A stretch of DNA of 38,901 nt, taken from assembly GCA_020831485.1 (NCBI GenBank), contig JAFIGG010000033.1, positions 1-38,901 of the forward strand. Reading direction: 5' to 3'. This document shows, one piece after another, positions 3,015-20,437 of the stretch (position 1 is its first letter; each line of letters starts with the position of its first letter). The stretch comes from Opitutales bacterium. GTDB lineage: Bacteria; Verrucomicrobiota; Verrucomicrobiia; Opitutales; Oceanipulchritudinaceae. Under the pieces are notes generated by a model, which worked only from the letters and a program-made list of their open reading frames with translations, had not been told where the DNA came from and did no database searches. Made by a program: the position numbers and the translations under genes.

Positions 3015-3398
3015 ATGAACGCAACCGATCAACTCAGCGAGATCCTTGAACAATTCGAAACCATTGGCAACCGCACTCATGCTCTGCTGGTCAAAGAAAA
3101 CGAACAATTGCAGGACCGCTCACAAGAGGCCGATCCCAGCCTGCTCGACCAAAAGCGTGACCTCATCGAGCAGCTCGACGAACTGGTTCAACGCTGCCGG
3201 GAAGCCGCATACTCCGCCGGTGGCGAACAGTCCTCAATCGTAAACCGCCTGCAAGCCAGATACCTCAAGCTGCTTATGCTGGACCGCGAAAACGAGCGCC
3301 TGCTTCTGCAATCAACAATGCCCAAACCTCCGCCGGTCAAAGCACCTGTACGCAACCTTTCCCAGGCCTATCAGCGTTCCTGCTCCAGCGTTTCCTGA
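3015..3398 (+). CDS. FlgN-like flagellar chaperone (tentative)
   Basis: This small protein of 127 residues is predicted to be nearly all helix and coiled coil, with two long amphipathic helices. The first covers about residues 20-65 and includes LLDQKRDLIEQLDELVQRC. The second covers about 75-105 and includes LQARYLKLLMLDRENERLLL. Length, two-helix layout and the 'N-R/E-x-LL' style of the second helix fit FlgN, the export chaperone of hook-associated proteins FlgK and FlgL. The tail is proline-rich and probably disordered. A flagellin-domain gene lies nearby and cheR begins 8 bases downstream, which supports a motility role. FlgN proteins are poorly conserved, so this rests on pattern and neighbourhood rather than diagnostic residues. 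Confidence 0.5.
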   Translation: MNATDQLSEILEQFETIGNRTHALLVKENEQLQDRSQEADPSLLDQKRDLIEQLDELVQRCREAAYSAGGEQSSIVNRLQARYLKLLMLDRENERLLLQSTMPKPPPVKAPVRNLSQAYQRSCSSVS

Positions 3399-3406
3399 AT
3401 CGACTC

Positions 3407-4279
3407 ATGACTGTTCCCGCCCCAAAGCAGTCGGGAGGAAAGCCGGTAACGATGTTGAATTCTCTGACCGAAAGCGATTACCACTTCATCCGCGACCTCG
3501 TCTACGAGCACAGCCGCATCAATCTCGGCGACGGTAAACGCGAGCTGGTCTTCGCGCGCATTGGCAAGCGCATGCGCCTGAACGGAATCAGCTCTCCCGA
3601 AGCTTATTGTGAGTTACTCCGATCCACCCAAGGTCTTACAGAACTCGGCCACCTCATCGACGTCATATCGACAAATCATACTCACTTTTTCCGCGAATAC
3701 GCCCACTTTGAGTTCCTCCAGCAAGTCGTTCTGCCAGAGTGGCGAAACCTGGCTACCGGCCAGCGCATGAACGTCTGGAGTGCTGCCTCTTCTTCCGGCG
3801 AAGAACCCTACTCCATTGCAATGGCGTTGGATCGCTGGATGCCCCGCCTCAATCTGGACCTCGACTGGCGAATTCTCGCAACGGACATTTCGTCGCGCAT
3901 GCTCGACCGAGCCCGGGAAGGCAGCTACAAGGCAAGTGCCGTCGAAGCCATAGACAGGGACTGGCGCAGTTGCTTTAACAAGGAGAAGGTCGACGGCGAA
4001 CTGCAGTACCGCGTGAAAGACCACATCCGCAGGAAAGTCAGCTATCATCAGATCAACCTGCTCGGTAAAAAAGTGCCAAAAGAAGCGACTTTCGACCTGA
4101 TCTTCTGCCGCAACGTCATGATCTACTTCGATCGCCAAACCCAAACCGAGTTGATCGCACGCCTTCAGGCCGCATTAAAGCCGGGGGCCTACCTCATGGT
4201 AGGACATTCGGAAAGCCTTGGCGGCATCGATCATGGCTTGCGGTTGATTCGACCGTCCATCTATCGTAAAACACCATGA
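3407..4279 (+). CDS. cheR: CheR chemoreceptor glutamate methyltransferase
   Basis: CheR methylates glutamates of chemoreceptors with S-adenosylmethionine and so drives adaptation, opposing CheB. The 290-residue protein has the small helical N-terminal domain (about 16-85). The family signature NHTHFFRE follows at 90-97, then the SAM-binding segment VWSAASSSGEEPYSIAM (about 123-139). Further on are the conserved FDLIFCRNVMIYFD and the C-terminal LMVGHSESL. All are intact, so the enzyme is probably active. The ATG at 3407 follows the previous stop by 8 bases. An internal ATG at 3452 has a GGAGG upstream, though at long spacing, and its product begins like most CheR proteins, so it is a serious alternative. 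The gene overlaps cheB by 4 bases. No pentapeptide-binding insert was looked for in detail. Confidence 0.95.
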   Translation: MTVPAPKQSGGKPVTMLNSLTESDYHFIRDLVYEHSRINLGDGKRELVFARIGKRMRLNGISSPEAYCELLRSTQGLTELGHLIDVISTNHTHFFREYAHFEFLQQVVLPEWRNLATGQRMNVWSAASSSGEEPYSIAMALDRWMPRLNLDLDWRILATDISSRMLDRAREGSYKASAVEAIDRDWRSCFNKEKVDGELQYRVKDHIRRKVSYHQINLLGKKVPKEATFDLIFCRNVMIYFDRQTQTELIARLQAALKPGAYLMVGHSESLGGIDHGLRLIRPSIYRKTP

Positions 4280-5361
4280 TTTCCGATCCGGCATCCAACC
4301 CTGTGCGTGTCCTTATTGTTGACGACTCCGCCGTCATCCGCTCGCTTCTCAAGCGTACATTGAGCAAGGACCCACGCATTGAGGTGGTTGGAACCGCGAT
4401 CAATCCCTATGACGCCCACGATCAGATAAGGGCAAAGAATCCTGATGTACTGACGCTCGACATCGAAATGCCAAAAATGGATGGGCTGACCTTTCTGAAT
4501 ATCCTGATGGAGCGGCATCCATTGCCCACGATCGTCATGAGCTCGATTTCTCAAAAGGGTTCATCACAGGCCATGGAAGCGCTGAAACTGGGGGCCGTGG
4601 ATGTTCTTGCGAAACCATCCGGCTCTGAGCAATTGAGTCAATTGCTGGGCTCGCTGGCAGACAGAATCGTCGAAGCTGCTTCTGCAAAGGTCGGCAACCG
4701 CGAACGGGCAACAGTGGAGAGCAACACACATCTGGATAAGGTCGATTGGCAGGCGGTGGACCCTGACCGCTTGATTCTACTCGGCGCCTCCACCGGTGGC
4801 ACCGAAGCCCTCAACCACGTTATCCGCCAGCTGCCCGCGGACTGTCCACCGATCCTAGTCGTTCAGCACATCCCTGCATACTTTTCAAAAGCATTCGCCG
4901 ACCGCCTCAACAGCACCTGCGACCTTGAAGTGCGCGAGGCGGTTCAGGGCGACCAGATCGAACCGGGAACTGTCCTGATTGCGCCCGGTGACTACCACAT
5001 GATTCTCGACATCCGGGGAAAATCCCGGAAGGTTAGGCTCACTCAAACCTCTCCCGTATGTTATCAAAGGCCCGCAGTCGACGTCCTCTTCCGCAGCGCA
5101 CTCCCATATGCTCCCCATGTGGTCTCGGGGATCCTAACCGGCATGGGCCGGGACGGCGCCGAGGGATTACTCAGGCTCCGCGAAGCAGGGGCACGGACTC
5201 TTGGCCAGGACGAAGCCTCCTGCGTCGTCTACGGAATGCCAAAAGCCGCCTTTGAACTCGGTGCCTGTGAACAGATGAAATCCCTTGGCAGCTATGCCCA
5301 ACACCTTCTACAACTCCTCCAAGAACAACCCAGAACCCGCTCCCGACATGCCCCCTGTTGA
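4276..5361 (+). CDS. cheB: CheB chemoreceptor methylesterase/deamidase
   Basis: CheB removes methyl groups from chemoreceptors, and deamidates them, when its receiver domain is phosphorylated. The 361-residue product has a receiver domain at about 10-125, with the acidic pair in LIVDDSAV and the phosphoacceptor Asp62 in LTLDIEMPKMDG. A linker follows, then the esterase domain. Its catalytic triad is visible: Ser172 in GASTGG, His198 in VQHIP and Asp293 in TGMGRDGAEG. The ATG overlaps the cheR stop (ATGA), a sign of translational coupling. Normally CheA phosphorylates CheB. No CheA is encoded in this window, so the phosphate donor is either encoded elsewhere or is the kinase encoded directly downstream, whose start overlaps this gene. 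Confidence 0.95.
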   Translation: MISDPASNPVRVLIVDDSAVIRSLLKRTLSKDPRIEVVGTAINPYDAHDQIRAKNPDVLTLDIEMPKMDGLTFLNILMERHPLPTIVMSSISQKGSSQAMEALKLGAVDVLAKPSGSEQLSQLLGSLADRIVEAASAKVGNRERATVESNTHLDKVDWQAVDPDRLILLGASTGGTEALNHVIRQLPADCPPILVVQHIPAYFSKAFADRLNSTCDLEVREAVQGDQIEPGTVLIAPGDYHMILDIRGKSRKVRLTQTSPVCYQRPAVDVLFRSALPYAPHVVSGILTGMGRDGAEGLLRLREAGARTLGQDEASCVVYGMPKAAFELGACEQMKSLGSYAQHLLQLLQEQPRTRSRHAPC

Positions 5362-7303
5362 AGCAGCCTCCCTCTCCAAATCGATCCGTCAAACTTCGGA
5401 AGCAAACTCCGGAACCGAAAAAGGACGTCGCTTAACTGAACCTTTCGGCAACGCAAAATACTGCCTGCCCCCTTCTGAGATCTCTTTCATCACCGATTGC
5501 AAGGGCATCATCAAAAATTACAACCGCGCAGAGGCCGCCAGCCTGCGCATGCCCCGCAAGGACCTGACGGGAGAGAACCTGCGCAAATGCCTCACAGAGA
5601 TCAAACCTCATTGGCAAGACCCCCTCGCCGGACCCTTTGTCCATCTGGAGAAACTCCTGCTCCCCTGGAGTCCTGATCCAGCCAGCGCTTCCGCCATGGA
5701 ATGGCAACTCCTGCGCCATGAAGACCTCTGTTTTGTTACCCTAAGCCCAGTCCATTCACTGGTCCTCGACGACGACAAACGCTGGAGCAATTTCCTCAAA
5801 CACTTCTCCGGCGTCTGCTACCGCCAACGGGCGGACCTTTCCTTTCGCTCGATCTCACCGAATGCCGAAAGCCTGCTCGGTCTAACGATGAACAACCTGT
5901 TGCAAAGCGGTGCCTCCTTTCTCAACTGCATTCATCCGGTCGACCTCAACCGCCTGCTCAACCGGCTGGGCAATATCAATCCCGACACCGACGATATTGT
6001 GACCTGGCAGTATCGTTTCCGCAATCCGAGGACTCAGAAGCTCCACTACCTTACAGACGTCCGTGAACCACTTTTTTCGGCGGAAGGCACTTTTATGGGC
6101 TACGAAGGCATCCTTGTCGATGTGACCCGTCAGGCCGTTGCTGAAAAACGTCTGAGCAACGCCTCATGGCAGCAGAACCTGTCGACATTGATCAGTGGTA
6201 TGGCCCACGATTTCGGCAACATCATGACGGGGGTCTACTCGTATTCAGATTCCATTCAACACTTGGTTGAAGAGGATTCGGATATCGCCAAAGGGTTGAA
6301 AAACATCACCCAATACGCCTCAGAAGCCAACCAATTGATCCGGCGCATGGTCGACATAAGCCGCAATCAGGGGCACCATAAAGGGCTGCACAATCTCGAT
6401 AGTCTCCTGGGTGAGCAGGCAGATTTGATCAAAATTATCCTCGGTCGCCGCTTCTCGCTTCAACTGGAAAAGCCAAACCGGGAACTCCCAGTCTACATTG
6501 ATGATTTTGGCTTTCGCCAAATGATACTTAATTTCGCCTCCAACAGCCGCGATGCAATTTCCGGTGAAGCCGAGATCCAGATTTTCCTACAAGCCCTGAA
6601 CCGGAATGAACTGCTCAAGGCACCAGGCATGGACTACGGAGCCAGCGAGGAGTGGGTGGAGCTCATTTTCGCCGACAGCGGCCCGGGGGTCAGCTCGGAG
6701 ATGACGGAAAAGCTTTTCGATCCGTTTTACAGCACCAAAGACCCAGCCAAGGGCTCCGGTCTCGGACTTTACAATGCTAGGATTTACTGTGAGGAACACG
6801 GCGGTACTATCCAGATCGAATCAGGCAAATCAAACGGTTTTCAAATAGTCATTCACCTTCCTCTGTTGGATGAGGAAGCAGTGATGCAAATCCTTAACCG
6901 CCGCCACGACTTGGCCACGGTTGAAGTCCCAGGGCTGATCTACGTGACCGAAGGCAAGCATCAGGACTCGGGCCTCATTCAGCAAATGCTTGATCACAAG
7001 TGGAAAATCCACCAGATCCGGGTTATTGATGACCTTAACAACGACCGCTTACCACGGCAACCAGACCTTCTGGTCATCGACTACTGGACGCTGGCCAAGC
7101 TTGAATCGGATTTTCTAAATGCACTCCATAGCCATTACCCGGAGACACAGAAAGTTCTCAACCTTTTCGGGGTCAACCCGGATGAAGTCGACAATCAAGT
7201 AACCGCTCGTTTCGACATGGTCATTAATGGAGAACCATCCTCACTCAACAAATACAACACACTGGAAAGGTTCTGGAAGGAACAAAAAAAGAGCCATGCA
7301 TGA
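5348..7303 (+). CDS. PAS-domain sensor histidine kinase with C-terminal pseudo-receiver
   Basis: This soluble kinase of about 651 residues has no membrane segments. Two PAS-like regions lie at about 43-130 and 157-265, the second ending in the typical GYEGILVDVTRQ. The H-box is LISGMAHDFGNIMTGV with His287, which resembles the NtrB-type (HisKA, 'HDFNN') class. The ATPase domain shows the N-box (NFASNSRDAI), the G1 box (FADSGPGVS), an F-box (LFDPFYSTK) and the G2 box (GSGLGLYNAR), all intact. The last 125 residues look like a receiver but lack the acidic pair, the Thr/Ser and the Lys, keeping only an Asp in LLVIDYWT. The start overlaps cheB by 14 bases; ATG 5294 and TTG 5285 are longer options. 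Likely partners are the regulators encoded at 7296 and 11118. Confidence 0.88.
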   Translation: MPPVEAASLSKSIRQTSEANSGTEKGRRLTEPFGNAKYCLPPSEISFITDCKGIIKNYNRAEAASLRMPRKDLTGENLRKCLTEIKPHWQDPLAGPFVHLEKLLLPWSPDPASASAMEWQLLRHEDLCFVTLSPVHSLVLDDDKRWSNFLKHFSGVCYRQRADLSFRSISPNAESLLGLTMNNLLQSGASFLNCIHPVDLNRLLNRLGNINPDTDDIVTWQYRFRNPRTQKLHYLTDVREPLFSAEGTFMGYEGILVDVTRQAVAEKRLSNASWQQNLSTLISGMAHDFGNIMTGVYSYSDSIQHLVEEDSDIAKGLKNITQYASEANQLIRRMVDISRNQGHHKGLHNLDSLLGEQADLIKIILGRRFSLQLEKPNRELPVYIDDFGFRQMILNFASNSRDAISGEAEIQIFLQALNRNELLKAPGMDYGASEEWVELIFADSGPGVSSEMTEKLFDPFYSTKDPAKGSGLGLYNARIYCEEHGGTIQIESGKSNGFQIVIHLPLLDEEAVMQILNRRHDLATVEVPGLIYVTEGKHQDSGLIQQMLDHKWKIHQIRVIDDLNNDRLPRQPDLLVIDYWTLAKLESDFLNALHSHYPETQKVLNLFGVNPDEVDNQVTARFDMVINGEPSSLNKYNTLERFWKEQKKSHA

Positions 7304-8573
7304 TAAACCCAAACTTCTGATTGTCGAAGACGACATGATGGTCCGCATGGTCCTCCACGAAACGTTGGAGGCCGAAGGTTATGCAGTCAGTTCCTTCGAG
7401 ACGCCGAGTCAGGCACTCGCCGCCATCAAAGAACACAACTACTGCATGGTTCTCAGCGATCTTCGGCTACCCGAAATGAGTGGCATGGACTTGCTGGATG
7501 AAATACGCAAGGCACAACCCAATGCCGTTCGCATCCTGATCACAGGCTACAGCAATATGGCAACTCTGGCCGAAGGCATCAACCGCGGCTTGCTCTTCCG
7601 TTTCATTTCAAAGCCTTGGACCCGTGAGGAACTGCTGACTACTATTCAGTCAGCAAAGGATCACTATGATCTGGAGCAATCTCACCGCTACCTTCAAGAA
7701 GAAACCAGAGCCCTCAACGAAAGCCTCGCAAGCGTCAACGCAGAGCTCAGGCTGGTCAACCACGAACTGCACAGTAAAATCGACGAACTGGAGCAGCAAA
7801 AGAACGATTTGAACGCACTCAGCAACCGACTCAATGACCAGGTCGAACACACGTTAGAGCTCTGCTATCAATTGCAGGAAAAGAACAACCCCATTCTCGC
7901 CATTCGCACCAAAGCACGGGTTGAGCTGGCACGGGGTATATGTAAAAACGCACCTTTCGATGATGAAGAAAAGCGCTGCCTGATCAACGCCTCCTGGCTG
8001 TGCGACCTAGGGATGATCGGTCTGCCAAGCGCATTGATTGACCGCTACAACCGGAAGCCAGAAAAGCTCTCCAGCGACGAAATCACACAGGTTCAAAACC
8101 ATCCGATTGTCAGCCAGCAGCTGGCTACATTGATCGACAAGTCTTCCACCTTAAGCAACGCCATCCGCTCCCACCATGAACGCCACGATGGCACTGGTTT
8201 CCCGGATGGACTGGCCGGAGACCGTGTCCCGGTAATGGCCCGCCTGCTGGCGGTCATTGTCCACTTCGCGGAATCAGAGGCAGACAACAAAACAATCCTC
8301 AAGGAGATCGAAGCCAAAGCGGGAAGCGATTTTCATCCGGATGCAGTTCGGAGCTTCTTCCGCTACGCCAACCTCGAAGAGCCACCCAGCCGCATGCGCG
8401 AAGTAGTCTTTGACGAATTGGAGCCCGGCATGCGTCTGGCAAATGGGATCTATGGCCCGACAGGCCTTATGCTGGTGGCTAAGGACCGGGTACTGGATGA
8501 AAATACCATTCGCCACATTCGCAATTACAACCAACGCAACCCCCTCCACCAACGCATTTTTGTCTACCGTTAA
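7296..8573 (+). CDS. Response regulator with degenerate HD-GYP domain
   Basis: The 425-residue product starts with a complete receiver domain (about 5-120): acidic pair in IVEDDMM, phosphoacceptor Asp55 in LSDLRLPEMSG, and Lys106 in ISKPW. A coiled coil at about 125-190 leads to an HD-GYP-like domain. HD-GYP enzymes hydrolyse cyclic di-GMP. Here the signature HD is replaced by Cys-Asp (WLCDLGMIGLP, 234-244), and the first helix has no metal-binding His. The usual VADxYDAL motif is replaced by VIVHFAESEAD. The HHERHDGTGFP motif (293-303) and the His in NHP (269) remain. Phosphodiesterase activity is therefore doubtful; a binding or docking role is more likely. A conserved C-terminal module (LEPGMRLANGIY) follows. 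It overlaps the kinase gene by 8 bases and has an AAGGA ribosome-binding site. Confidence 0.88.
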   Translation: MHDKPKLLIVEDDMMVRMVLHETLEAEGYAVSSFETPSQALAAIKEHNYCMVLSDLRLPEMSGMDLLDEIRKAQPNAVRILITGYSNMATLAEGINRGLLFRFISKPWTREELLTTIQSAKDHYDLEQSHRYLQEETRALNESLASVNAELRLVNHELHSKIDELEQQKNDLNALSNRLNDQVEHTLELCYQLQEKNNPILAIRTKARVELARGICKNAPFDDEEKRCLINASWLCDLGMIGLPSALIDRYNRKPEKLSSDEITQVQNHPIVSQQLATLIDKSSTLSNAIRSHHERHDGTGFPDGLAGDRVPVMARLLAVIVHFAESEADNKTILKEIEAKAGSDFHPDAVRSFFRYANLEEPPSRMREVVFDELEPGMRLANGIYGPTGLMLVAKDRVLDENTIRHIRNYNQRNPLHQRIFVYR

Positions 8574-8606
8574 TTTGCTGGCACCAAGCCACCGTCCTCT
8601 TTCAAC

Positions 8607-9131
8607 ATGCCGGTATCCTATCTCAATAGCCCAGCACTATCCCAACGCGTAATCGTTGGTGTTGGCGACTTTGCTGCAGCAAACAATCCCAATGCAGTCC
8701 TCTCGACCTTTGCACTGGGTTCATGCCTTGGCGTGATCGCACTCGATCCGGGCATCAAGGCAGCCGGCTTGCTCCATTGCATGCTTCCCGACTCCACATT
8801 GGACGAGGAAAAAGCGCGCGACCGTCCAGCCATGTTTACGGACACCGGATTCAAACTCCTGATGCGCAATATGCTCGGACTCGGGGCACGAGTTCATCGC
8901 TTGCGTTTTGTCATTGCCGGTGGAGCCAGCAACTTTGGTGACCAGGACTTTTTCCGAATCGGTCCACGCAACCTTGAAACGCTGGATAAGATCATCGACA
9001 CCTACAGCTTCAACATGATCCACCGCTTCACAGGTGGAACGATCAACCGCACTTTGCATTTCAGCCTCAGCACAGGACTGCTGCAGTTGAAGACGCCGCA
9101 GGGCACGAGCGAACACAGCTGTTACGATTGA
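8607..9131 (+). CDS. cheD: CheD chemoreceptor glutamine deamidase
   Basis: CheD deamidates glutamines on chemoreceptors and in some bacteria also works with CheC in adaptation. The 174-residue length is typical. The catalytic Cys40 lies in TFALGSCLGV and His57 in AAGLLHCMLP, both at the expected spacing. The later segments PAMFTDTGFKLLMRNM and FVIAGGASNF also follow the family pattern, and residues 127-170 look like the usual C-terminal sheet. It begins 33 bases after the HD-GYP-like gene and its stop overlaps the ribosome-binding site of the next gene. Together with cheR and cheB it completes a receptor-adaptation set, although no receptor gene is in view. Confidence 0.93.
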   Translation: MPVSYLNSPALSQRVIVGVGDFAAANNPNAVLSTFALGSCLGVIALDPGIKAAGLLHCMLPDSTLDEEKARDRPAMFTDTGFKLLMRNMLGLGARVHRLRFVIAGGASNFGDQDFFRIGPRNLETLDKIIDTYSFNMIHRFTGGTINRTLHFSLSTGLLQLKTPQGTSEHSCYD

Positions 9132-9141: not shown

Positions 9142-11028
9142 ATGTGCGGCATTGCAGGCAGTTTCTCCATTGACCGCGAGCGGCATCTCGACCGCAGTCG
9201 TCTCGAACAGGCGCTGACGCGCCTGCGGCCACGCGGCCCGGATGGCCAGGGCCGCCATTGCGCAGCTGGAATCCAACTCGGCCACCGCCGCCTCGCAATA
9301 CTGGATCCGGATAATGCGCCACAACCATGGCTTGAAACCGACCGCGGCGAAGTTCTCAGTTACAACGGTGAAATCTACAATTTTCGCAGCCTTCACAAGG
9401 ATCAACTCAATGGCTGCAAGCTCGCATCCAGCGGTGATACGGCGGTGTTGAGCGCATTGCTTGCGCAACAGGGGCTGGGTGCCTTACCCAAACTCTCCGG
9501 CATGTTTGCCTTTGCATGGTACCAGCCTGGCCAACACCGGATCACACTGGTCAGGGACCCATTGGGAGTTAAGCCCCTTTACTACTGTTTTCGGGAAGGT
9601 ATACTGAACTTCGCTTCCACTGTTCCCGCCTTGCTCGACCTGGCGCATTGGCCTCGAAAACTGGATGGCGTCGCTCTCCAGCATTACCTGACAACGGGGC
9701 GAAATCATTTGGATGGCCGTACCCTGATTCAAGGCATTCACTGCCTCCGACCGGGAGAAGTCCTGCAGCTGGACGCAGCCGGCAAAGTTCTCAGAAGCCA
9801 CCGTTATTGGCAGACGCCCATCGTCACAGAGGGCGAAAAGCGCACATTAACCTGGGAATCAGCCACGCAGGTTTGTCATGAAAAAATTCTGACATCGGTT
9901 AAAGCACAGATGGTCAGTGATGTACCTATCGGAGCTTTCATCAGCGGCGGTCTCGATTCGGCAATAATAGCCAACTCGATCCCTAAGGCAGAACGTTCCC
10001 GCTTGTTTGGCTTCAACGTTGGCTACGAGCACGAAGGTTTCAATGAGTGGCCCTGGGTACGCGATTTGGCAGATAATAGCGGAATTGACACCAGCATCAT
10101 TTCCCTCGGCGGGAGCGACGCATGGAGTGATCTGGCCGCTCAGATTGAATGGAAGGGTCTGCCCCTTTCCACACCCAACGAAATGGCCATTCGCAAGCTT
10201 GCCAACGCCTTCGCACAACGAGGTAAAGTGGCCCTCACCGGTGAAGGGGCCGATGAAATATTCGGCGGCTATGCCCTGCCCCAGGCCGGCGCACTGGACT
10301 ACGACCGCGCACTCAATCTGGACACCTCAGCCCCCCTGCACGCCCGGCTCGCATCGGCCTATGGCCAGTCCCGTTTCCGCTCCCGGGCAGATCACTACCT
10401 CTTGCTCAACAGCTGGACCCGGAAACATCAACGCGATCAATGGCTGAGTCCGGAATTTCAGGCAACCTGGCAAGGTGAGACCGCAGTGCGAACTTACTAC
10501 GACGACAGTCTAGCCGAATTCTCCAGCTGCTCCACAACAGAAGCCTATCTCCACCTGCACACCCGAATCAATCTTGAGGGTTTGCTAGAGCGCGTGGACG
10601 CGTCGACCATGGCGGCATCGGTGGAGGCCCGTGTTCCATTCACCGACCACCAGCTCGTAGAATGGGCGTTTCATCTCCCCTCCGACTGGAAGATCCGCCT
10701 CAACCCAAAGGCCGAAACCAAACTCAGTACGGTCTTCGACTGGTATCCAAACAATCAAATCGAAAGTAAACGCATTCTGCGTGAAGCCTTCGCCCAACGA
10801 GTTCCCCAGTCCATCCTCGAACGCCGCAAATTCAGCTTTCCAACTCCCTTTGAGCAATCCATGCGGAATGAATGGAGTAACGAAGTCCGCACAACTCTGC
10901 AGCAAAGCCAACTGCTTCGGGACATCCTCAAAGACTCACCCGAAAAACTCGCCGATGCAGGTATCTCCACCTGGCTCTGGCTCAACCTGGCCATCTGGGC
11001 TGAGCAGTGGCAAATCGAAGCCAGCTGA
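9142..11028 (+). CDS. asnB: Glutamine-dependent asparagine synthetase
   Basis: AsnB makes asparagine from aspartate, ATP and glutamine. The N-terminal amidotransferase domain begins MCGIAG, so Cys2 can act as nucleophile after Met removal. RGPDGQG, HRRLAILD, SYNGEIYN and VRDPLGVKPLYY follow. The synthetase domain has the pyrophosphate loop FISGGLDSA (about 267-275) and TGEGADEIFGGY (about 366-377), both complete. At 628 residues it has normal length for the bacterial AsnB class. It sits between cheD and a sigma-54 activator, an unusual place for an amino-acid gene. AsnB-like enzymes also amidate surface sugars and peptides in glycan and antibiotic loci, so a role in modifying flagellar or envelope glycans is possible, but no other glycan gene is in view. 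Confidence 0.9.
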   Translation: MCGIAGSFSIDRERHLDRSRLEQALTRLRPRGPDGQGRHCAAGIQLGHRRLAILDPDNAPQPWLETDRGEVLSYNGEIYNFRSLHKDQLNGCKLASSGDTAVLSALLAQQGLGALPKLSGMFAFAWYQPGQHRITLVRDPLGVKPLYYCFREGILNFASTVPALLDLAHWPRKLDGVALQHYLTTGRNHLDGRTLIQGIHCLRPGEVLQLDAAGKVLRSHRYWQTPIVTEGEKRTLTWESATQVCHEKILTSVKAQMVSDVPIGAFISGGLDSAIIANSIPKAERSRLFGFNVGYEHEGFNEWPWVRDLADNSGIDTSIISLGGSDAWSDLAAQIEWKGLPLSTPNEMAIRKLANAFAQRGKVALTGEGADEIFGGYALPQAGALDYDRALNLDTSAPLHARLASAYGQSRFRSRADHYLLLNSWTRKHQRDQWLSPEFQATWQGETAVRTYYDDSLAEFSSCSTTEAYLHLHTRINLEGLLERVDASTMAASVEARVPFTDHQLVEWAFHLPSDWKIRLNPKAETKLSTVFDWYPNNQIESKRILREAFAQRVPQSILERRKFSFPTPFEQSMRNEWSNEVRTTLQQSQLLRDILKDSPEKLADAGISTWLWLNLAIWAEQWQIEAS

Positions 11029-11117: not shown

Positions 11118-12566
11118 ATGGGTTTTGACAGTATCCTTATTTTGGACGACGAAATGATCGTCCGCAAGCACCTGGAAGAAATCCTGCGCAAACGGCGTTA
11201 CCGCGTTCAGTCAGCGGCCTCTCTCGCTGAAGCCGGCGAGCGCATGAGCAAGGGTCAGTACGATCTGATATTTTGCGACCTTCGGCTTCCAGACGGAGAA
11301 GGTACGGACTTTCTTAGACAATATGTGAAAGGGAAGGATGCTCCAATAATTGTGATGATGACAGGGCATGGAAGCGTCGAAAATGCCGTAGAATGCATGC
11401 GTATCGGGGCTTTCGACTACGTGACCAAACCTCTGTCCATCAATCAGGTAGAGGTCATCCTGGATAAAGCGGAACGCTATGAGCAACTGGTCGAGGTCAA
11501 CCAATACTACGCTTCAAGTGAAGACTCGGCGACCCAGTTGCATGGCGAATCCGCAGCCATGCAGCGCCTCAATGAGCTGATTGGCCGGGTGGCGAAAACC
11601 GATGCCACCGTTCTGATTCAAGGCGAAACCGGCACTGGTAAGGAACTCATTTCACACGAGATCTACCGCCTTAGCCAACGGTCTGGCCAACCCTACATCA
11701 AAGTCAACTGTGCGGCGGTGTCGGAGACCTTGATAGAAAGTGAGTTTTTCGGCCATGAAAAAGGCGCTTTCACCGGTGCCCTGCAACGCCGCAAAGGGCG
11801 CTTTGAGCTTGCACATGGCGGCACACTTCTGCTCGACGAGATCAGTGAAATCTCACTGCCACTTCAGGCAAAGCTTCTGCGGGTGCTCCAGGAAAAGGAA
11901 TTCGAACGCGTGGGCGGTAGTTCAACCATTCAGACGGATGTGCGCGTCATCGCTACCACCAATCGCAATCTACTGGGCTCCGTCGAAAAGGGTGAATTCA
12001 GGCGCGACCTCTACTACCGATTGAATGTTTTTCCCCTGCAGTCTCCCCCTCTCCGTGAGCGTCGGGAAGACATTCCATTGCTCGCCCAGAAGTTTCTAAA
12101 GGACTTCAGCCGCAAACACGGCATACCGGTAAAGGGATGCACACCGGAAGCTATGAACGCATTGATTCAACACAGTTGGCCGGGAAATGTTCGGGAACTA
12201 CAAAACCTTGTCGAACACGCGGTCATCATGACACCGACAAACGGTTGGATCGAACCAATTGCTCTTGGAACATTGGCCTACATAGGCGGTCCGCAACCTT
12301 CCGGGCTTCCGGCTGAAATCATGACAACAGGTAACGGCAGCGAAAATCCTGTCGTGGCACAGCATGATGAATCCGGAGACAACTCTGCCAAACCTGTCAA
12401 ATCGCTGGCAGACATTGAGCGCAATCACATTCACCGCGTGCTGATCCAAACCGCAGGCAACCGCTCGCAGGCAGCTGAAATTCTGGGCGTCAACGTGCGC
12501 ACTTTACGCAACAAGCTGAACACCTACCGCGACGAAGGCCACGTGGAATTCAAGGCTTTTGATTGA
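11118..12566 (+). CDS. NtrC-family sigma-54 response regulator
   Basis: The 482-residue protein activates sigma-54 RNA polymerase after phosphorylation. Domains in order: a receiver (about 4-120) with the acidic pair in LILDDEM, phosphoacceptor Asp54 in FCDLRLPDGEG and Lys in VTKPL; an AAA+ domain (about 142-370) with Walker A GETGTGKE, the sigma-54-contact loop GAFTGA (216-221) and Walker B GTLLLDE; and a Fis-type helix-turn-helix at the end (GNRSQAAEILGVNVRTLRNKL). All key residues are present. The start at 11118 gives a normal receiver start; longer versions would run into asnB. It lies 89 bases after asnB. It is a natural partner for the PAS kinase at 5348 and a candidate activator of the promoter at 800-815, similar in logic to FlrC/FlgR systems. 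Confidence 0.92.
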   Translation: MGFDSILILDDEMIVRKHLEEILRKRRYRVQSAASLAEAGERMSKGQYDLIFCDLRLPDGEGTDFLRQYVKGKDAPIIVMMTGHGSVENAVECMRIGAFDYVTKPLSINQVEVILDKAERYEQLVEVNQYYASSEDSATQLHGESAAMQRLNELIGRVAKTDATVLIQGETGTGKELISHEIYRLSQRSGQPYIKVNCAAVSETLIESEFFGHEKGAFTGALQRRKGRFELAHGGTLLLDEISEISLPLQAKLLRVLQEKEFERVGGSSTIQTDVRVIATTNRNLLGSVEKGEFRRDLYYRLNVFPLQSPPLRERREDIPLLAQKFLKDFSRKHGIPVKGCTPEAMNALIQHSWPGNVRELQNLVEHAVIMTPTNGWIEPIALGTLAYIGGPQPSGLPAEIMTTGNGSENPVVAQHDESGDNSAKPVKSLADIERNHIHRVLIQTAGNRSQAAEILGVNVRTLRNKLNTYRDEGHVEFKAFD

Positions 12567-12569
12567 GCC

Positions 12570-13580
12570 CTACTGCTGCTGACTGCGCTGAACGGCGATC
12601 TCAGCTTCCATATCCACGGCAGGAAGCTGGAAATACTCTTCGTAGATGCTTTGATTGAGTCCGATCAAGCGGAGTTGAACCCGATCTATGAATTCGTGCA
12701 GGCCCTCTTCCCAGATATCATCAATGCTGGCGTAAGCGACATCCCCCATCAGGCGACCCGCCAATTTTTCAGCCCGGTTGGCATAGAAGCCCTCATCGGT
12801 CCCCGATATGGATCGCAGTTGTTGTTCCAACTGACGCAGGCAGTAACGAATAGAGCGAGGGAAATTCTGCGAAAGTATCAAGAATCCGGATACATTAAGC
12901 GCATCGGCTTCGCCTGTGCGGTTTGACTGAAAAGCATCCACGGCACTACTGGACCGAAGGATCGCAACCCAAATAGCAATATCCACAGTTCCTCCACCCT
13001 GCTGCCCGTCCGGAAGAGGCAGAAAATACTTCAGATCCAGAATTCGCGAAGTCTGGTCTGCCCTCTCCAGATAGCGCCCGACTTGAAGGAACTTGTATCC
13101 CTCGCTGTGAAAGTAAGTAGCTTCCATCAGGCCCACAAAGCGGTAGGAATAATTTTTGATCTCTTCAAAAAAATCGTAGTTGGTCGTTTCCTCATTATCG
13201 AGAAACTCCTGTTCATTGCGCACAAAGTGATACATCTCATTGATGCACTCCCACATTTCTTCCGAAATCTGATCCCGAATCATTCGCGCGTTTTCGCGCG
13301 CACTGCTGACTGAGGAGAAAATGGAATTTGGATTGTGGGCTTCGCGCGTGAGAAAGGCCGTCACACCGTCCGCGTCGATCCCATCATGGTGTTCGCGAAA
13401 CAATTCGACATCCCCCGTCGATTGCACAATCGCCTCCCAAAAAACCTCTTCAACGCCATCCACATAGGCTTCAAAATCATCCAGCAACTGGAGGTTGACA
13501 TCCAGAATGCGCGCGGTGTTCTCGGCCCGCTCTATATAGCGTCCGATCCAGTAAAGTGAGTTGGCAACACGTGAAAGCAT
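12570..13580 (-). CDS. Alpha-E domain protein (DUF403)
   Basis: The product is 336 residues, all helical. The start MLSRVANSLYWIGRYIERAENTAR is the hallmark of the alpha-E family. Further family features are YLERADQTSRILDLKY in the middle and SIYEEYF near the end. Alpha-E proteins are almost always next to a circularly permuted ATP-grasp gene, as here, and the pair is proposed to make or modify a small peptide or peptide-like conjugate. The biochemical reaction is unknown. It lies 22 bases downstream of the ATP-grasp gene and is probably co-transcribed with it. It converges on the NtrC-type gene with a gap of 3 bases and no visible terminator. Confidence 0.93.
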   Translation of the reverse strand: MLSRVANSLYWIGRYIERAENTARILDVNLQLLDDFEAYVDGVEEVFWEAIVQSTGDVELFREHHDGIDADGVTAFLTREAHNPNSIFSSVSSARENARMIRDQISEEMWECINEMYHFVRNEQEFLDNEETTNYDFFEEIKNYSYRFVGLMEATYFHSEGYKFLQVGRYLERADQTSRILDLKYFLPLPDGQQGGGTVDIAIWVAILRSSSAVDAFQSNRTGEADALNVSGFLILSQNFPRSIRYCLRQLEQQLRSISGTDEGFYANRAEKLAGRLMGDVAYASIDDIWEEGLHEFIDRVQLRLIGLNQSIYEEYFQLPAVDMEAEIAVQRSQQQ

Positions 13581-13602
13581 GAAATATCAGATTCGTTGAA
13601 GG

Positions 13603-15042
13603 TCAGGAGTCATTGCGCAGTACCCAGGTATCTTTGGACCCCCCGCCCTGCGAGGAGTTCACGACCAGGCTGCCTTTGCGTAAAGCAACCCGGGTCAGCC
13701 CGCCGGGAATGATCTTCACCCCATCCCCGTAGAGAACAAAGGGCCTCAAATCCACATGCCGACCTTCAAAGCCCGCATCGGTCCAGGTCGGATGGCGGGA
13801 GAGCGAGATGGTTGGCTGGGCAATAAAGTTTCGGGGATCTGCTTTGATCATTTGACGGAATTCCTCGATTTCCGCCTTAGTTGAGGCCGGCCCGATCAAC
13901 ATCCCATAGCCCCCTGCTTCGTTGGCTGACTTGACCACCAACTTTGGCAAATGCTCCATAATGTATGACATGTCCTGAGGCTCCGAGGCCAGATAAGTGT
14001 CCACATTTGGAAGGATCGGCTCTTCACCCATGTAATACTTGATCATGCGCGGCACGAAGTAATACATCACCTTGTCATCAGCGACTCCGGTACCAACCGC
14101 ATTTGCAAGGGCCACGTTGCCCGCCCTGTAGGCATTCATCAAACCGGGCACCCCCAGCATCGAATCGGGGCGAAACACACTCGGGTCAAGGAATTCATGG
14201 CTGACCCGGCTGTAGATTACATCCACCTGTTTAAGGCCCTGCGTCGTGCGCATAAATACGTGGGAATTGCGCACCACGAGATCCCGCCCTTCAACAATTT
14301 CAATCCCCATCTCCCGCGCCAGAAAACAATGCTCGAAATAGGCACTGTTGTGGACACCTGGGGTCAGTATAACAACCATTGGATCCGGGTTGGCCGAAGG
14401 TGCGATGTAACGCAGCATCCGCAGCAACTCATCGGGATACTGCTTGACCGGCTCGACTTCCGAAGTGGGAAACAGCCGAGGGAAAGTACGCTTCAAAACC
14501 TGCCGGCTTTCCAACATATAGGAGACACCCGAAGGGCAGCGCAAATTGTCTTCGAGCACCAGATAGCGACCCTCCCCGTCCCGGATAAGGTCGGATCCGG
14601 AAATGTGCACATAGATATCTCTGGGGACCTTGGTGCCGACGAATTCTTTACAGAACTGTTTGGCGGAAAGTATGTAACTGGCAGGAATGACACCGTCCTT
14701 GATAATTTTCTGCTCGTGATAAATGTCGTGCAGAAATGCATTCAGAGCGACGATGCGCTGGGTCAGACCCTTTTCCAAATGCGCCCACTCCGTGCGCGGG
14801 ATGATGCGCGGCAAAACGTCGAAGGGGAAAATACGCTCCGTGCCCTGGCTGTCGTGGTAGACCGTAAAAGTTACGCCCTGGCTCAGGAAAGCTGAATCAA
14901 TGTAGCGCCGCCGAATCTCAAACTCATCAGGGTTCAGACGCTCTATGCTCTCGAACAGGCGTTGGTAATGTGGCCGGATCCGTCCATCCGGCTCAAACAT
15001 TTCATCAAAAAATCCTTCGGTCTCGTAATTGTTAAAATCCAT
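13603..15042 (-). CDS. Circularly permuted ATP-grasp protein (DUF404/407 type)
   Basis: The predicted enzyme of about 479 residues belongs to the circularly permuted ATP-grasp family 2. Features visible near the start are [21 protein letters not shown], then [20 protein letters not shown] and [13 protein letters not shown]. Nucleotide- and metal-binding segments are [13 protein letters not shown] and [14 protein letters not shown], followed by [12 protein letters not shown]-grasp enzymes join a carboxylate to an amine or thiol through an acyl-phosphate. The family is linked to peptide-bond chemistry together with alpha-E proteins and often a transglutaminase-like protease; no such protease is in view here. 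I chose the ATG at 15042 because the conserved start of the family begins there; ATG 15072 and a start at 15147 are longer alternatives. No clear ribosome-binding site was seen. Confidence 0.92.
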
Positions 15043-15212
15043 GAAATTAGCAGAGCTGTTTCTCACAGCCATGCACACCCCATACCAAAACCAGCCAAGA
15101 CTCAACTCAAAGTCGGATTTTTTCGATTCTGCGAAATTTTGCCCCAAAACCGACCCCCGATTTCAAGCATAAGCGTACCTTCATACTCTTTTTAGATATC
15201 TTTATCTTTTTT

Positions 15213-15735: not shown

Positions 15736-18700
15736 ATGAAAGACGACTCCACCCAAATTCACGATGCCAACGAAGCGGTAGCCTCAGTCGCTTACCGCCT
15801 CAGCGAAAACATTGTCATCTATCCAATCACCCCTTCTTCGCCGATGGCCGAGCTCTCAGATGAGTGGTCGAGCATGAAGCGCAAGAACCTGTGGGATGCG
15901 GTACCGCAGGTTGCTCAGATGCAATCTGAAGGCGGCGCCGCCGGAGCCGTCCACGGCAATCTACAGGCCGGTTCAATGGCAACCACCTTCACGGCATCAC
16001 AGGGTTTGCTGCTGATGATTCCGAACATGTATAAGATCGCGGGCGAACTGACCCCGTTCTGCATGCACGTCACCGCCCGCAGCCTAGCGACCCACGCTCT
16101 GTCGATTTTTGGCGATCACTCCGATGTCATGGCCTGCCGCCAGACCGGTTTTGCCATGCTGGCCTCGAATTCGGTTCAGGAGGCACACGATCTGGCCGCC
16201 ATCGCACACTCGGCAACCCTGAAATCGAGAATCCCTTTTCTGCACTTTTTTGACGGTTTTCGCACATCGCACGAAGTCAACACCTATCAGGCCCTGTCCA
16301 ACGAAGTACTCCGCCAACTGGTCGACGAGGAAGATGTCCGCGCCCACCAACGCCGCGCCCTCACCCCAGACGCCCCGATCATCCGCGGGACAGCGCAGAA
16401 CCCGGATGTGTTCTTCCAGGCCCGGGAGGCCGCCAACAGCTACTACGATGCCTTGCCGGGAATCGTCGAAGACCTGATGGAGTCCTTCCACAAAATCACC
16501 GGCCGCGCTTACAAACTCTTTGACTATGTCGGTCCGGATGATGCCGAAGAACTTATTATCATCATGGGATCGGGAGCTGAAACGGTTGAGCAAACTTCGG
16601 CCTGGCTGAACCGCAAAGGCCGCAAGACCGGTGTTTTAAAGGTTCGCCTGTTCCGCCCATTTTCAATCGAACGCTTTGTTCAAGCAATCCCCCCAAGTAT
16701 CCGCAAGATTGCTGTGCTGGACCGGACCAAAGAGCCCGGTGCCATTGGCGAACCGCTTTATCAGGATGTGCTGTCCGCCCTCGCCGAAGCCCGGGCCAGC
16801 GGAGAAACTCCAGAAACCTTCAACCCAGTCGTAGTGGGTGGCCGCTACGGACTGGGATCCAAAGAGTTTGACCCCGGCATGGTTCGCGCTGTCTACGACA
16901 ACCTCAAGACAGACAAACCGCGCAATCACTTCACGATCGGCATTGTTGACGACGTCACGCATACCTCGCTGGATTGGGACAAGAATTTCAGCATTCAGGC
17001 TGAGGACGTATTCAGCGCGGTCTTCATCGGCCTGGGATCGGACGGAACCGTCGGCGCCAATAAAAACACGATCAAAATCATCGGCACCGAAACGGACAAC
17101 TACGCTCAGGCATATTTTGTCTACGACAGTAAAAAGTCCGGGGCCATGACCGTTTCCCACCTGCGATTCGGTCCGCGCCCAATTCATGCGCCGTATCTAG
17201 TCGGCAATGCCCACTTTGTCGGCTGCCACCAATACTCCTTCATTGACCGCTTTGATGTGCTCGATCGAGCAGCCAACAAGGCTGTGTTTCTGCTCAACTC
17301 GCCGCACAGTGTCGATACAATCTGGGAACGCCTTCCCCAGGAAGTGCAGCAGACGATCATCGACAAGCAGCTCGAGTTCTACGTGATCGATGCCTACAAG
17401 GTATCACGTGAAACCGGCATGGGAAGTCGCATCAATACGATCATGCAGACTTGCTTCTTTGCGATTTCAGGAATCCTGCCGCGCGACGAAGCCATCGAAA
17501 AAATCAAAAACACGATCGAAAAGACCTATTCCCGCAAGGGACGTGCAGTTGTTGAGAAAAACTATGCCGCAGTCGATGGGACTCTGGCCAATCTGCACAA
17601 GGTTGAGATTCCGGAGACAGCTACCTCGACCCGTCAAATGTTGCCCCCTGTCGCCGAAGCTGCACCCGACTTTGTGCAAAAAGTTACCGGAGTCATGCTC
17701 GCCGGCAAAGGAGATCTACTGCCCGTTTCCGCATTCCCGATCGACGGCACCTGGCCGGTTGCAACCAGCCAGTGGGAAAAGCGCCGCATCGCCCTGCAGG
17801 TTCCGACCTGGGAACCAGACCTCTGTATTCAGTGCGCCAAATGTGTGCTGGTTTGCCCACACGCAGCCATTCGCGCCAAGGCCTATCCTGAATCAAGCAT
17901 GGTCGCCTCGCCTGAAGACTTTCTCAGCAAGGAGTTCCGCTCCCGTGAAGTCAAAGAGCACCTCTACACCATTCAGGTGGCTCCGGACGACTGCACAGGC
18001 TGTCAACTCTGCGTCAACGTCTGCCCGGCCAAGGACCGCAAGAGTCCAAACCGCAAGGCCATCAACATGACCGACCTCGATCCGGTCCTCGAGCGGGAAC
18101 AGAAGAACTACGACTATTTCCTCGAACTTCCGGAGCTGGACAATTCCGAGATGCGCCTCGACGTCAAGAGCAGCCAGCTGAAGAAGCCGCTCTTCGAATA
18201 CTCGGGTGCCTGCTCCGGTTGTGGCGAAACCCCTTACATTAAGTTGCTCACCCAACTGGTCGGAGACCGCCTGATGATTGCCAACGCCACCGGCTGTTCG
18301 TCGATCTACGGCGGAAACCTGCCAACCACTCCCTACACGGTCGATGCCAATGGGCGTGGGCCAACCTGGTCCAATTCACTCTTCGAGGACAACGCGGAGT
18401 TCGGTTTTGGCCTGCGCATGGCAGTGGATTACAAGGCCAATACGGCGGCAGGACTGGTCACCGCACTGGCCAGTGAACTGGGCGATGACTTTGTCCAAGC
18501 CATCGTCGCCAACCCTCAGGATTCGCAGAAATCGATCGACCAGCAACGCCAGCAGGTGCTCGCCCTGCGCGAAAGGTTGAAGGGCATCAAAGATCCACGG
18601 GCAAGAATGCTCGAACCCCTCGCCGACTATCTGGTCCGTAAATCGGTCTGGTGCATTGGTGGAGACGGCTGGGCCTACGACATCGGCTTTGGTGGTCTTG

Positions 18701-19299
18701 ATCAAGTCCTGGCCAGTGGCCAGAATATCAACATTCTGGTACTCGATACCGAAGTCTATTCCAACACCGGGGGCCAGTCCTCCAAATCGACTCCAATGGG
18801 GGCCGTCGCCAAGTTCGCCGCAGGCGGCAAGGCACGGGGCAAAAAGGACCTGGGACTCATAGCCATGGGTTACGGCCACGTCTACGTCGCGACAGTCGCC
18901 ATGGGCGCCAAAGACCTGCAAACCGTGCAGGCACTTGCCGAAGCGGAAGCCTACGATGGCCCGTCCCTGGTCATTGCCTACAGCCACTGTGTGGCCCACG
19001 GCTACGACCTGGCACAAGGTCTCGACCAGCAGAAACTCGCGGTCCAAACCGGCTACTGGCCCATCTACCGTTTCGATCCACGCCGCGCCGCCGAGGGTCA
19101 ACCGGGCCTCAAGCTGGATTGCAAGGAACCCGACACACCCCTGCGGGAATACATGAACAACGAAATGCGCTTCCGTATTCTGCAAAACAGCAATCCGGCA
19201 CAGGCAAAGATTCTGGCCGAAGAAGCGCAAAAGCAGATTCATGTCCGCTACAACCACTATCAAAGCCTGGCCACCGCCAAACCGGAACAAGACGCATGA
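15736..19299 (+). CDS. nifJ: Pyruvate:ferredoxin (flavodoxin) oxidoreductase
   Basis: This 1187-residue single-chain enzyme converts pyruvate and CoA to acetyl-CoA and CO2, reducing ferredoxin or flavodoxin. It has the full-length fused layout. The N-terminal pyruvate domain shows the family motif YPITPSSPMAE (about 31-41). The ferredoxin domain has two 4Fe-4S motifs, CIQCAKCVLVCP near residue 697 and CTGCQLCVNVCP near 753. The C-terminal TPP domain begins with CSGCGET near 826, whose cysteines help hold the proximal cluster, and continues with the TPP/Mg motif GGDGWAYDIG near 975 and YSNTGGQSS. All cysteines are present. The enzyme is oxygen-sensitive in most hosts and signals a fermentative or facultative lifestyle. 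Its stop overlaps the start of the next gene (ATGA). Confidence 0.97.
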   Translation: MKDDSTQIHDANEAVASVAYRLSENIVIYPITPSSPMAELSDEWSSMKRKNLWDAVPQVAQMQSEGGAAGAVHGNLQAGSMATTFTASQGLLLMIPNMYKIAGELTPFCMHVTARSLATHALSIFGDHSDVMACRQTGFAMLASNSVQEAHDLAAIAHSATLKSRIPFLHFFDGFRTSHEVNTYQALSNEVLRQLVDEEDVRAHQRRALTPDAPIIRGTAQNPDVFFQAREAANSYYDALPGIVEDLMESFHKITGRAYKLFDYVGPDDAEELIIIMGSGAETVEQTSAWLNRKGRKTGVLKVRLFRPFSIERFVQAIPPSIRKIAVLDRTKEPGAIGEPLYQDVLSALAEARASGETPETFNPVVVGGRYGLGSKEFDPGMVRAVYDNLKTDKPRNHFTIGIVDDVTHTSLDWDKNFSIQAEDVFSAVFIGLGSDGTVGANKNTIKIIGTETDNYAQAYFVYDSKKSGAMTVSHLRFGPRPIHAPYLVGNAHFVGCHQYSFIDRFDVLDRAANKAVFLLNSPHSVDTIWERLPQEVQQTIIDKQLEFYVIDAYKVSRETGMGSRINTIMQTCFFAISGILPRDEAIEKIKNTIEKTYSRKGRAVVEKNYAAVDGTLANLHKVEIPETATSTRQMLPPVAEAAPDFVQKVTGVMLAGKGDLLPVSAFPIDGTWPVATSQWEKRRIALQVPTWEPDLCIQCAKCVLVCPHAAIRAKAYPESSMVASPEDFLSKEFRSREVKEHLYTIQVAPDDCTGCQLCVNVCPAKDRKSPNRKAINMTDLDPVLEREQKNYDYFLELPELDNSEMRLDVKSSQLKKPLFEYSGACSGCGETPYIKLLTQLVGDRLMIANATGCSSIYGGNLPTTPYTVDANGRGPTWSNSLFEDNAEFGFGLRMAVDYKANTAAGLVTALASELGDDFVQAIVANPQDSQKSIDQQRQQVLALRERLKGIKDPRARMLEPLADYLVRKSVWCIGGDGWAYDIGFGGLDQVLASGQNINILVLDTEVYSNTGGQSSKSTPMGAVAKFAAGGKARGKKDLGLIAMGYGHVYVATVAMGAKDLQTVQALAEAEAYDGPSLVIAYSHCVAHGYDLAQGLDQQKLAVQTGYWPIYRFDPRRAAEGQPGLKLDCKEPDTPLREYMNNEMRFRILQNSNPAQAKILAEEAQKQIHVRYNHYQSLATAKPEQDA

Positions 19300-20321: not shown

Positions 20322-20356
20322 ACCTTTCTTGCCCAGATCCATTATACGAAGCCCAC

Positions 20357-20396
20357 GAAACCCGCTCTGCAGCCGCAGTGCGGGTTTCCCATTTTT
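20357..20396 (+). terminator. Rho-independent terminator after the nifJ operon
   Basis: GAAACCCGC (20357-20365) pairs perfectly with GCGGGTTTC (20380-20388). Inside, after one T-T mismatch, CTGC pairs with GCAG around the loop AGCC. The stem is followed by CC and then ATTTTTC. The GC-rich stem and T run make this the best terminator in the window. It separates the nifJ operon from gshF, so gshF needs its own promoter between about 20397 and 20437 or nearby. Confidence 0.9.
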
Positions 20397-20437
20397 CGGG
20401 CCCCGACAACTCCCATCCTCGACATTTCAGCGTAATC

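Follow-up and report, generated by a model that had tools for sequence, protein, structure and literature searches.

A soluble histidine kinase and a degenerate HD-GYP response regulator linked to the flagellum in a cheR–cheB–cheD run of an Opitutales bacterium

Chemotaxis genes need not form a single operon: in the portion of PMC2829493 drawn on here, 74 % of 101 species without a complete che operon split their che genes over complementary operons, and Opitutus terrae is named as a species with an isolated cheA. FlrB and FleS are described, in the part of PMC7064773 that concerns them, as cytoplasmic flagellar kinases with PAS input and an NtrC-type partner, while part of PMC12570481 presents NosR as a degenerate HD-GYP regulator phosphorylated by NosK, a soluble kinase of its operon. 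Here, a run of five genes was analyzed at positions 3407–9131 of a 38,901-nucleotide stretch of Opitutales DNA (hereafter the window; contig JAFIGG010000033.1 of assembly GCA_020831485.1), in which the adaptation genes cheR, cheB and cheD are interleaved with a histidine kinase (HK) and a response regulator with a receiver and an HD-GYP-like domain (RRHD). The source genome, G000, comprises 3.86 Mb in 142 contigs at 96.8 % completeness, and the window opens at base 1 of its contig C100. We propose, with a probability of roughly 0.64, that the run combines the adaptation half of one flagellar chemotaxis system with a separate, flagellum-linked pair, HK and RRHD. The five genes are as follows.

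3407–4279, + strand: cheR, methyltransferase of methyl-accepting chemotaxis proteins (MCPs), 290 amino acids (aa) (PF03705, PF01739; E 2e-58)
4276–5361, + strand: cheB, receiver-methylesterase, 361 aa (PF01339, 1.6e-58; receiver PF00072, 4.2e-24)
5348–7303, + strand: HK, soluble histidine kinase with two PAS domains, a dimerisation and histidine phosphotransfer (DHp) domain, a catalytic ATP-binding (CA) domain and a C-terminal pseudo-receiver, 651 aa (PAS_3, 1.4e-5; HisKA, 3.8e-4; HATPase_c, 9e-17; AlphaFold2 domains; orthologs)
7296–8573, + strand: RRHD, response regulator with receiver and degenerate HD-GYP domain, 425 aa (receiver, 2.4e-24; HD_5, 1.4e-21)
8607–9131, + strand: cheD, receptor glutamine deamidase, 174 aa (PF03975, 2.7e-22)

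Pfam searches confirmed the gene calls of the initial annotation for all five genes, in place and on the + strand, as well as the receiver that it had assigned to CheB. The first four genes overlap by 4 nt (cheR/cheB), 14 nt (cheB/HK, ATG 5348) and 8 nt (HK/RRHD, ATG 7296); cheD begins 33 nt downstream of RRHD. The open frame of HK reaches back to a TTG at 5285; ATG 5348 gives the shorter overlap and was taken as the likeliest start. The RRHD frame is open from 7227, and its 425 aa are counted from ATG 7296.

The window contains no match to CheW-domain proteins (CheA, CheW) or to MCPs, and all such matches in the genome lie on another contig, C75. The CheW family has two members there, CheW itself (181 aa) and a CheA frame of 781 aa that carries Hpt, dimerisation, ATPase and CheW domains; the MCP family has one, a 686-aa receptor. 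MCP, a TonB-C protein and CheW are encoded on one strand of C75; a double-receiver protein, CheA, flgB, flgC, fliE, fliF and fliG on the other. CheA, CheW, MCP and a flagellum are thus all encoded in this genome, as expected for a CheA–CheW–MCP flagellar chemotaxis system. The statement that the adaptation set comes without CheA, CheW or receptor is correct for the contig of the window and incorrect for the genome, where one copy of each was found beside flgBC–fliEFG; an orphan adaptation set without a core was accordingly ruled out. The run of the window is most likely the adaptation half of an ordinary chemotaxis system, the other half of which lies elsewhere in the same genome.

The genome has three CheB-domain matches, and only the cheB of the window occupies a stand-alone frame. 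The other two (L006, C111:6640–7167; L008, C31:8185–8712) are contained in open frames 1370 and 1391 aa long and are probably CheB fusions; the second contains an inner TAA. In G226, a genome of the same order and another family, a single 19.5 kb stretch carries CheW, an open reading frame (ORF), a tetratricopeptide repeat (TPR) protein, an ORF, CheR, CheB, HK, three ORFs, a double-receiver protein, CheA, FlgB and FlgC. This cluster unites most pieces of the window and C75, with no MCP seen in that stretch. C75 also encodes, at L003:12567–14211, a protein whose weak flagellin match falls below the cut-off, beside FlbT and FlaF, flagellin regulators known from Alphaproteobacteria.

The distribution of RRHD was assessed in a sample of 384 genomes of the class, with presence called at E ≤ 1e-60. 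FliE was found in 90 of these genomes and CheA (H-kinase_dim) in 95, with 65 having both. RRHD was present in 77 genomes, 74 of which have FliE; conversely, 74 of the 90 FliE genomes carry RRHD, compared with 3 of the 294 without FliE. Broken down further, it occurs in 57/65 genomes with FliE and CheA, 17/25 with FliE only, 0/30 with CheA only and 3/264 with neither. CheA serves as a built-in control, overlapping FliE in only 65 of its own 95 genomes. The genomes of the class are kin, so Fisher values overstate the association and the counts themselves are the evidence. RRHD and FliE share a contig in 36 of the 74 genomes and lie at most 10 kb apart in 26 of these 36. Within genera g16, g18, g50 and g53, inspected by eye in the listed rows, the FliE members have RRHD and the listed FliE-less members do not. 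A second sample of 194 genomes covering the phylum gave 31 RRHD profile matches at E ≤ 1e-40, 14 inside the class at 502–612 bits and 17 outside at 142–251 bits. Seven genomes outside the class have FliE in this sample, and one of them (G504) is among the RRHD matches. Matches outside the class thus score low and do not go together with FliE, which confines the link of RRHD with the flagellum to the class.

HK is likewise conserved, and the embedded kinase noticed at the outset proved real, recurring across genera and families in phyletic association with flagella and chemotaxis. Among 17 genomes of the family (including G000), orthologs, defined at ≥165 bits with the next best kinase at 116 bits, were found in seven, exactly the seven with CheW. 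In all six relatives that have HK, cheR–cheB stands directly before it; the gene in G013 is broken by contig ends, with cheR–cheB on one contig. In a wider scan, cheR–cheB abuts HK in 10 of 55 loci. That scan of named-species genomes gave 58 HK loci, of which 55 were kept and three (L106–L108) were dropped as weak or partial matches. Nearly all record titles of the 55 belong to Verrucomicrobiota (Opitutales, Puniceicoccaceae, Opitutaceae, Limisphaerales, Pedosphaera). The same HK also occurs in L069, L088, L098 and L102, whose records bear the titles Klebsiella pneumoniae, Proteobacteria, Akkermansia muciniphila and Omnitrophota; these labels of metagenome-assembled genomes are probably wrong. 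In the class sample, HK was detected in 38 genomes at E ≤ 1e-20; the 25 at ≥140 bits are referred to as strong, and the other 13 (76–107 bits) were not counted. FliE accompanies strong HK in 24 of the 25 genomes and CheA in 22; by category, strong HK occurs in 22/65 genomes with FliE and CheA, 2/25 with FliE only and 0/30 with CheA only. The named-species and class-sample loci overlap, some coming from the same genomes, and are not independent sets.

The usual neighbour of HK is RRHD, not CheB. Six of the 55 loci end in or just past HK; in the remaining 49 readable ones, RRHD follows HK directly in 43, a tally made up of 39 found by script and four read from maps (L070, L094, L095 and L101, whose called frames start too early; the L094 contig is L142 of the class sample). 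RRHD is directly downstream of HK in 21 of the 25 strong-HK genomes and linked to it in 22 (19 direct and one linked among 23 fetched loci, plus G000 and G015), the exceptions being G277, G226 and G104. It stands beside HK in the weaker-HK genomes G289, G254, G221 and G140 as well, and is absent from the matched places in G097, G058, G091, G074 and G303. Abutment of cheR–cheB on HK was seen in six of the 25 class-sample genomes, all six from the order of the window; outside this order, no class-sample locus has cheB directly beside HK, and nearly all have RRHD there. Flagellar genes (the flgB group or fliC/fliD) occur in 25/55 named-species and 12/23 class-sample HK loci, and flagellar or che genes in 33/55 and 13/23, figures that reflect variable stretch lengths and queries that miss diverged genes. 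A fliC or fliD gene lies near HK–RRHD in 15/55 and 8/23 loci, its identity having been established by Pfam for one locus. In Limisphaerales-type loci, a second hybrid PAS kinase often comes after HK–RRHD (e.g., L148:11951–14242); in the single copy that was scanned, a receiver is recognisable.

Residue conservation in RRHD was evaluated in 80 sequences, i.e., 88 loci less near-duplicates. The receiver is intact, with its Asp in 80/80, Thr in 78/80 and Lys in 79/80 sequences. The HD-GYP domain is not: the His aligned with GHxxRV of PDB 5z7c is present in 3/80 (mostly Q; the window has R227). The late Asp ligand, AD of PDB 5z7c and 4r8z, is kept in 1/80, with two gaps; the window has V345. The HD dyad keeps H in 42/80 and D in 64/80, so that many relatives retain it, while the window has C259-D260. 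Neither the first-motif His, the complete HD dyad nor the late Asp expected of a cyclic di-GMP (c-di-GMP) phosphodiesterase is therefore found in the protein of the window. The lost His and Asp positions are those that we take to be metal ligands in HD-GYP enzymes. Given these losses, RRHD is probably enzyme-dead and is predicted to have no phosphodiesterase activity and to act by contact; the initial designation HD-GYP-like needs the correction that ligand positions of the domain are lost. Five further ligand-type residues are all intact in 39/80 sequences, and relatives that keep them could retain some activity.

AlphaFold2 modeling of HK from a 50-row alignment (mean predicted local distance difference test score, pLDDT, 81) outlined PAS domains at 45–136 and 156–258, DHp at 260–338, CA at 345–505 and a β–α tail at 529–650; the domain names were assigned by us from the predicted elements and Pfam. 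H287, N395, N399, D443, G445, G447, G469, G471 and G473 are invariant in all 50 sequences. Judged by hydropathy only, the kinase is soluble, without a strongly hydrophobic stretch (maximum KD19 1.12 vs. 2.94 for MCP). Its core is closest to CckA/VirA-type kinases in NCBIfam (122–128 bits), and the earlier label of an NtrB-like kinase did not stand, NtrB scoring 41 bits. Folded alone, the tail reached a pLDDT of 89.5, and its best PDB matches were AmiR (1qo0_E, E 1.7e-4, TM score 0.51) and CheY-like receivers (TM about 0.65). No PF00072 match was found in any of the 50 HK proteins at E ≤ 0.1, and Asp at the acceptor position occurs in one of the 50 rows (two gaps), which is the protein of the window itself. 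The tail is a pseudo-receiver in the family, and with no conserved acceptor in it, HK was rejected as a hybrid phosphorelay kinase; given the single Asp kept in the window, phosphorylation of this one copy is conceivable. A pseudo-receiver tail implies that HK would pass its phosphate on in trans.

Taken together, these patterns suggest the following mechanism. CheR, CheB and CheD would carry out methylation and adaptation of the one MCP found, with the core (MCP, CheW, CheA and the double-receiver protein) supplied from C75 and that CheA phosphorylating CheB. HK would sense a cytoplasmic cue via its PAS domains and then phosphorylate RRHD, the best supported of the three transfers that had been proposed from this kinase (to CheB, to RRHD and to the sigma-54 regulator encoded downstream). 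Phosphorylated RRHD would most likely act on flagellar function by binding a partner in the flagellar motor, the chemotaxis machinery or the gene-expression machinery, rather than by cutting c-di-GMP.

Several observations weigh against this proposal. At the threshold used, 16 of the 90 FliE genomes lack RRHD, among them members of g24 (G226), g93, g107 and parts of g87 and g110, and strong HK occurs in only 24 of the 90; G226, the owner of the combined cluster, has no RRHD match at all. Three RRHD genomes (G140, G190 and G287) are without FliE. RRHD follows HK in only three of the six family relatives, because of which our confidence was lowered slightly, and is missing after HK in six of the 49 readable loci, three of which are records of G012, G014 and G013. 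In G104, an NtrC-type gene is next to HK, and RRHD lies elsewhere, beside fliC–fliD. Neither a flagellar nor a che gene was seen with the queries used in 22 of the 55 HK loci, many of them short. In the order of the window, cheB often abuts HK or RRHD, and a functional tie to CheB is possible. Finally, HK is not obligatory, as it is absent from 7 of 20 further loci and its adjacency has changed at least five to six times; in such loci RRHD must take its input from another source, perhaps CheA.

This last point leads to the alternative that survives best, namely that RRHD is a chemotaxis regulator fed by CheA, to which HK is an optional input or a phosphatase. Twenty further RRHD loci were chosen by us from the 77 RRHD genomes, and in seven of them (G031, G187, G058, G097, G101, G279 and G109) RRHD comes immediately after cheB, without an intervening HK. 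All seven are divergent from flgB/flgC; a separate cheR precedes cheB in five, a CheA frame lies within the stretch in four, and cheD comes next in six, being unseen in G187, near a contig end. In a quick tree of 47 RRHD rows, HK adjacency needs six changes, five of them forced by the starred branches; the rows of the window and G328 are long-branched and of unsure placement, and L181 (G051) was counted as HK-less, although its RRHD is preceded by a 261-aa frame weakly similar to HK. The HK-less loci and the changes on the tree indicate that cheR–cheB–…–RRHD–cheD is the more lasting part in this order and HK an optional module, which makes HK a poorer candidate for the kinase of CheB and allows for transfer from CheA to RRHD where HK is absent. 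CheA is, moreover, present in 57 of the 77 RRHD genomes. However, RRHD is retained in 17 of the 25 FliE genomes that have no CheA, and it adjoins HK in 21 of the 25 strong-HK genomes. We consider a CheA-fed RRHD possible, on the doubtful side of even; it and the HK–RRHD pair could both hold, in different lineages. A tentative synthesis, which we would entertain rather than defend, makes RRHD a flagellar component of the whole class. Switched by phosphorylation, this pseudo-HD-GYP effector would dock on the motor or the export apparatus, with its input coming from CheA in loci that have it behind cheB without a kinase, and from the dedicated kinase HK in those that have HK. If so, one output node would integrate chemotaxis adaptation with a second, cytoplasmic input.

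HK could instead be an assembly-checkpoint kinase of the FleS/FlrB/FlgS type, with the NtrC-type regulator at 11118–12566 as its true target and RRHD as a side branch. HK is, as expected of this type, a soluble kinase with PAS or coiled-coil input, an anatomy that it shares with FlrB and FleS as described in part of PMC7064773, and in 10 of the 55 loci it stands beside flgBC–fliEFG. An NtrC-type gene directly follows HK in G104 and lies further down the run in G000, G015 and G016; in G015 and G016 it comes after CheD and one small ORF, and in the window it is separated from HK by three genes, RRHD, cheD and one other. HK is thus not generally encoded next to an NtrC-type partner: such adjacency was found in 1 of the 25 class-sample loci, against 21 of 25 for RRHD, and was rejected as a general rule, which also tells against the suggested transfer from the kinase to the sigma-54 regulator. 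Sigma-54 sites, scanned with up to two mismatches to the consensus and with expectations obtained by shuffling, were not in excess in the window (28 vs. 23.5 expected) or in L004 (6 vs. 10.6), and the region of about 1.2 kb before cheR contained none. At 800–815, ahead of the first frame of the run, lies a single + strand site with two mismatches, no more than expected by chance, and a sigma-54 promoter before cheR is unsupported by these counts. A checkpoint role of this kind appears unlikely.

Still less probable is the model of the initial annotation, in which HK is a main phosphate donor of CheB, feeds the sigma-54 regulator and RRHD as well, and so connects receptor adaptation with gene expression in the absence of CheA. 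The overlap of cheB with HK in the window, the abutment of cheR–cheB on HK in 10 of the 55 loci, the clear receiver of CheB and the NtrC-type gene downstream in the window, G015 and G016 are all in its favour. Nevertheless, CheA is present in this genome and in 22 of the 25 strong-HK genomes, the neighbour kept by HK in class-sample loci outside the order of the window is nearly always RRHD and never cheB, and cheB–RRHD persists without HK in the seven loci described above; HK as the CheB donor is therefore not supported. That HK and RRHD are chance or housekeeping genes swept into a che operon with no role in motility is highly improbable: gene order does differ among lineages and HK adjacency changes repeatedly, but the tie of RRHD to FliE (74/77) exceeds that of CheA itself (65/95), and linkage extends to two distinct flagellar clusters, flgBC–fliEFG and fliC–fliD.

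The genes flanking the run on the same strand are listed below.

1637–2998, + strand: TPR protein upstream in the same run (Pfam TPR, synteny)
3015–3398, + strand: small coiled-coil protein, weak candidate for a flagellar chaperone of the FlgN type (FlgN match at E 0.047, under the cut-off)
9142–11028, + strand: asparagine synthase-like amidotransferase, encoded after cheD and before the NtrC-type gene (PF00733, PF13537)
11118–12566, + strand: NtrC-type sigma-54 activator, frame open from 11007, in-frame ATG at 11118 (PF00158, PF00072, PF02954)

By synteny, homologs of the TPR gene lie near cheR, HK or NtrC-type genes in some relatives. The gene recurs near che or flagellar regulator genes in L162–L164, L160, L091, L101 and L070, accompanied by a homolog of the coiled-coil gene in L162–L164 and by a small unmatched ORF in the other four. 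The FlgN identity of the coiled-coil protein stays weak. Elsewhere in the window, an Alpha-E protein adjoins a circularly permuted ATP-grasp protein on the − strand (12570–15147); positions 15736–22762 hold a 1187-aa pyruvate:ferredoxin oxidoreductase, a dihydroorotate dehydrogenase-like frame and an 815-aa frame combining glutamate–cysteine ligase and ATP-grasp; and at 23912–27318 a heme oxygenase gene overlaps a 933-aa bacteriophytochrome hybrid kinase (PAS_2–GAF–PHY–HisKA–HATPase–REC), a pigment-making and light-sensing pair.

Two features of these results were unexpected: a response regulator with a pseudo-HD-GYP domain is tied to the flagellum across the class, and it sits inside cheR–cheB–cheD operons. 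RRHD is a strong candidate for a standard element of flagellar operation in these bacteria. With it, the function of degenerate HD-GYP domains can be tested in a defined setting, and the run offers a test of how a chemotaxis operon takes in an extra kinase. Among the literature matches listed, no paper reports a flagellum-linked RRHD or HK in Verrucomicrobiota, which is weak evidence of novelty with subscription journals mostly outside the coverage, and no title among those matches concerns flagellar control in this phylum.

Compared with known systems, HK and its neighbours combine familiar parts in another arrangement. The tail of HK has its top fold match in the receiver-like domain of AmiR (PDB 1qo0, chain E). 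AmiR is an amidase-operon regulator and this domain of it is not known to be phosphorylated, while in HK the domain caps a kinase. CckA/VirA-like hybrid kinases give the best NCBIfam scores, and the CckA DHp–CA unit is among the fold matches, but HK falls far below the family cut-offs and has a tail without a conserved acceptor Asp. As in the complementary operons of PMC2829493, che genes are here divided among operons that jointly give the full set; the section on such operons describes no embedded kinase, and the main text has no match to "HD-GYP" or "orphan". HK shares with FlrB, FleS and FlgS, as far as PMC7064773 is drawn on here, the character of a cytoplasmic kinase for the flagellum, and with FlrB and FleS the PAS input; their partner is NtrC-type, whereas HK usually stands beside RRHD and has tandem PAS domains and a pseudo-receiver tail. 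For RRHD, the closest likeness is NosR, which also joins a receiver to a degenerate HD-GYP domain and, according to the part of PMC12570481 cited above, is fed by a soluble kinase of its operon. RRHD matches the NosR model (NF053512) over its full length at 299 bits, below the cut-off of 400, and is accordingly not placed in that family; NosR is linked to nitric oxide, whereas RRHD is linked to the flagellum.

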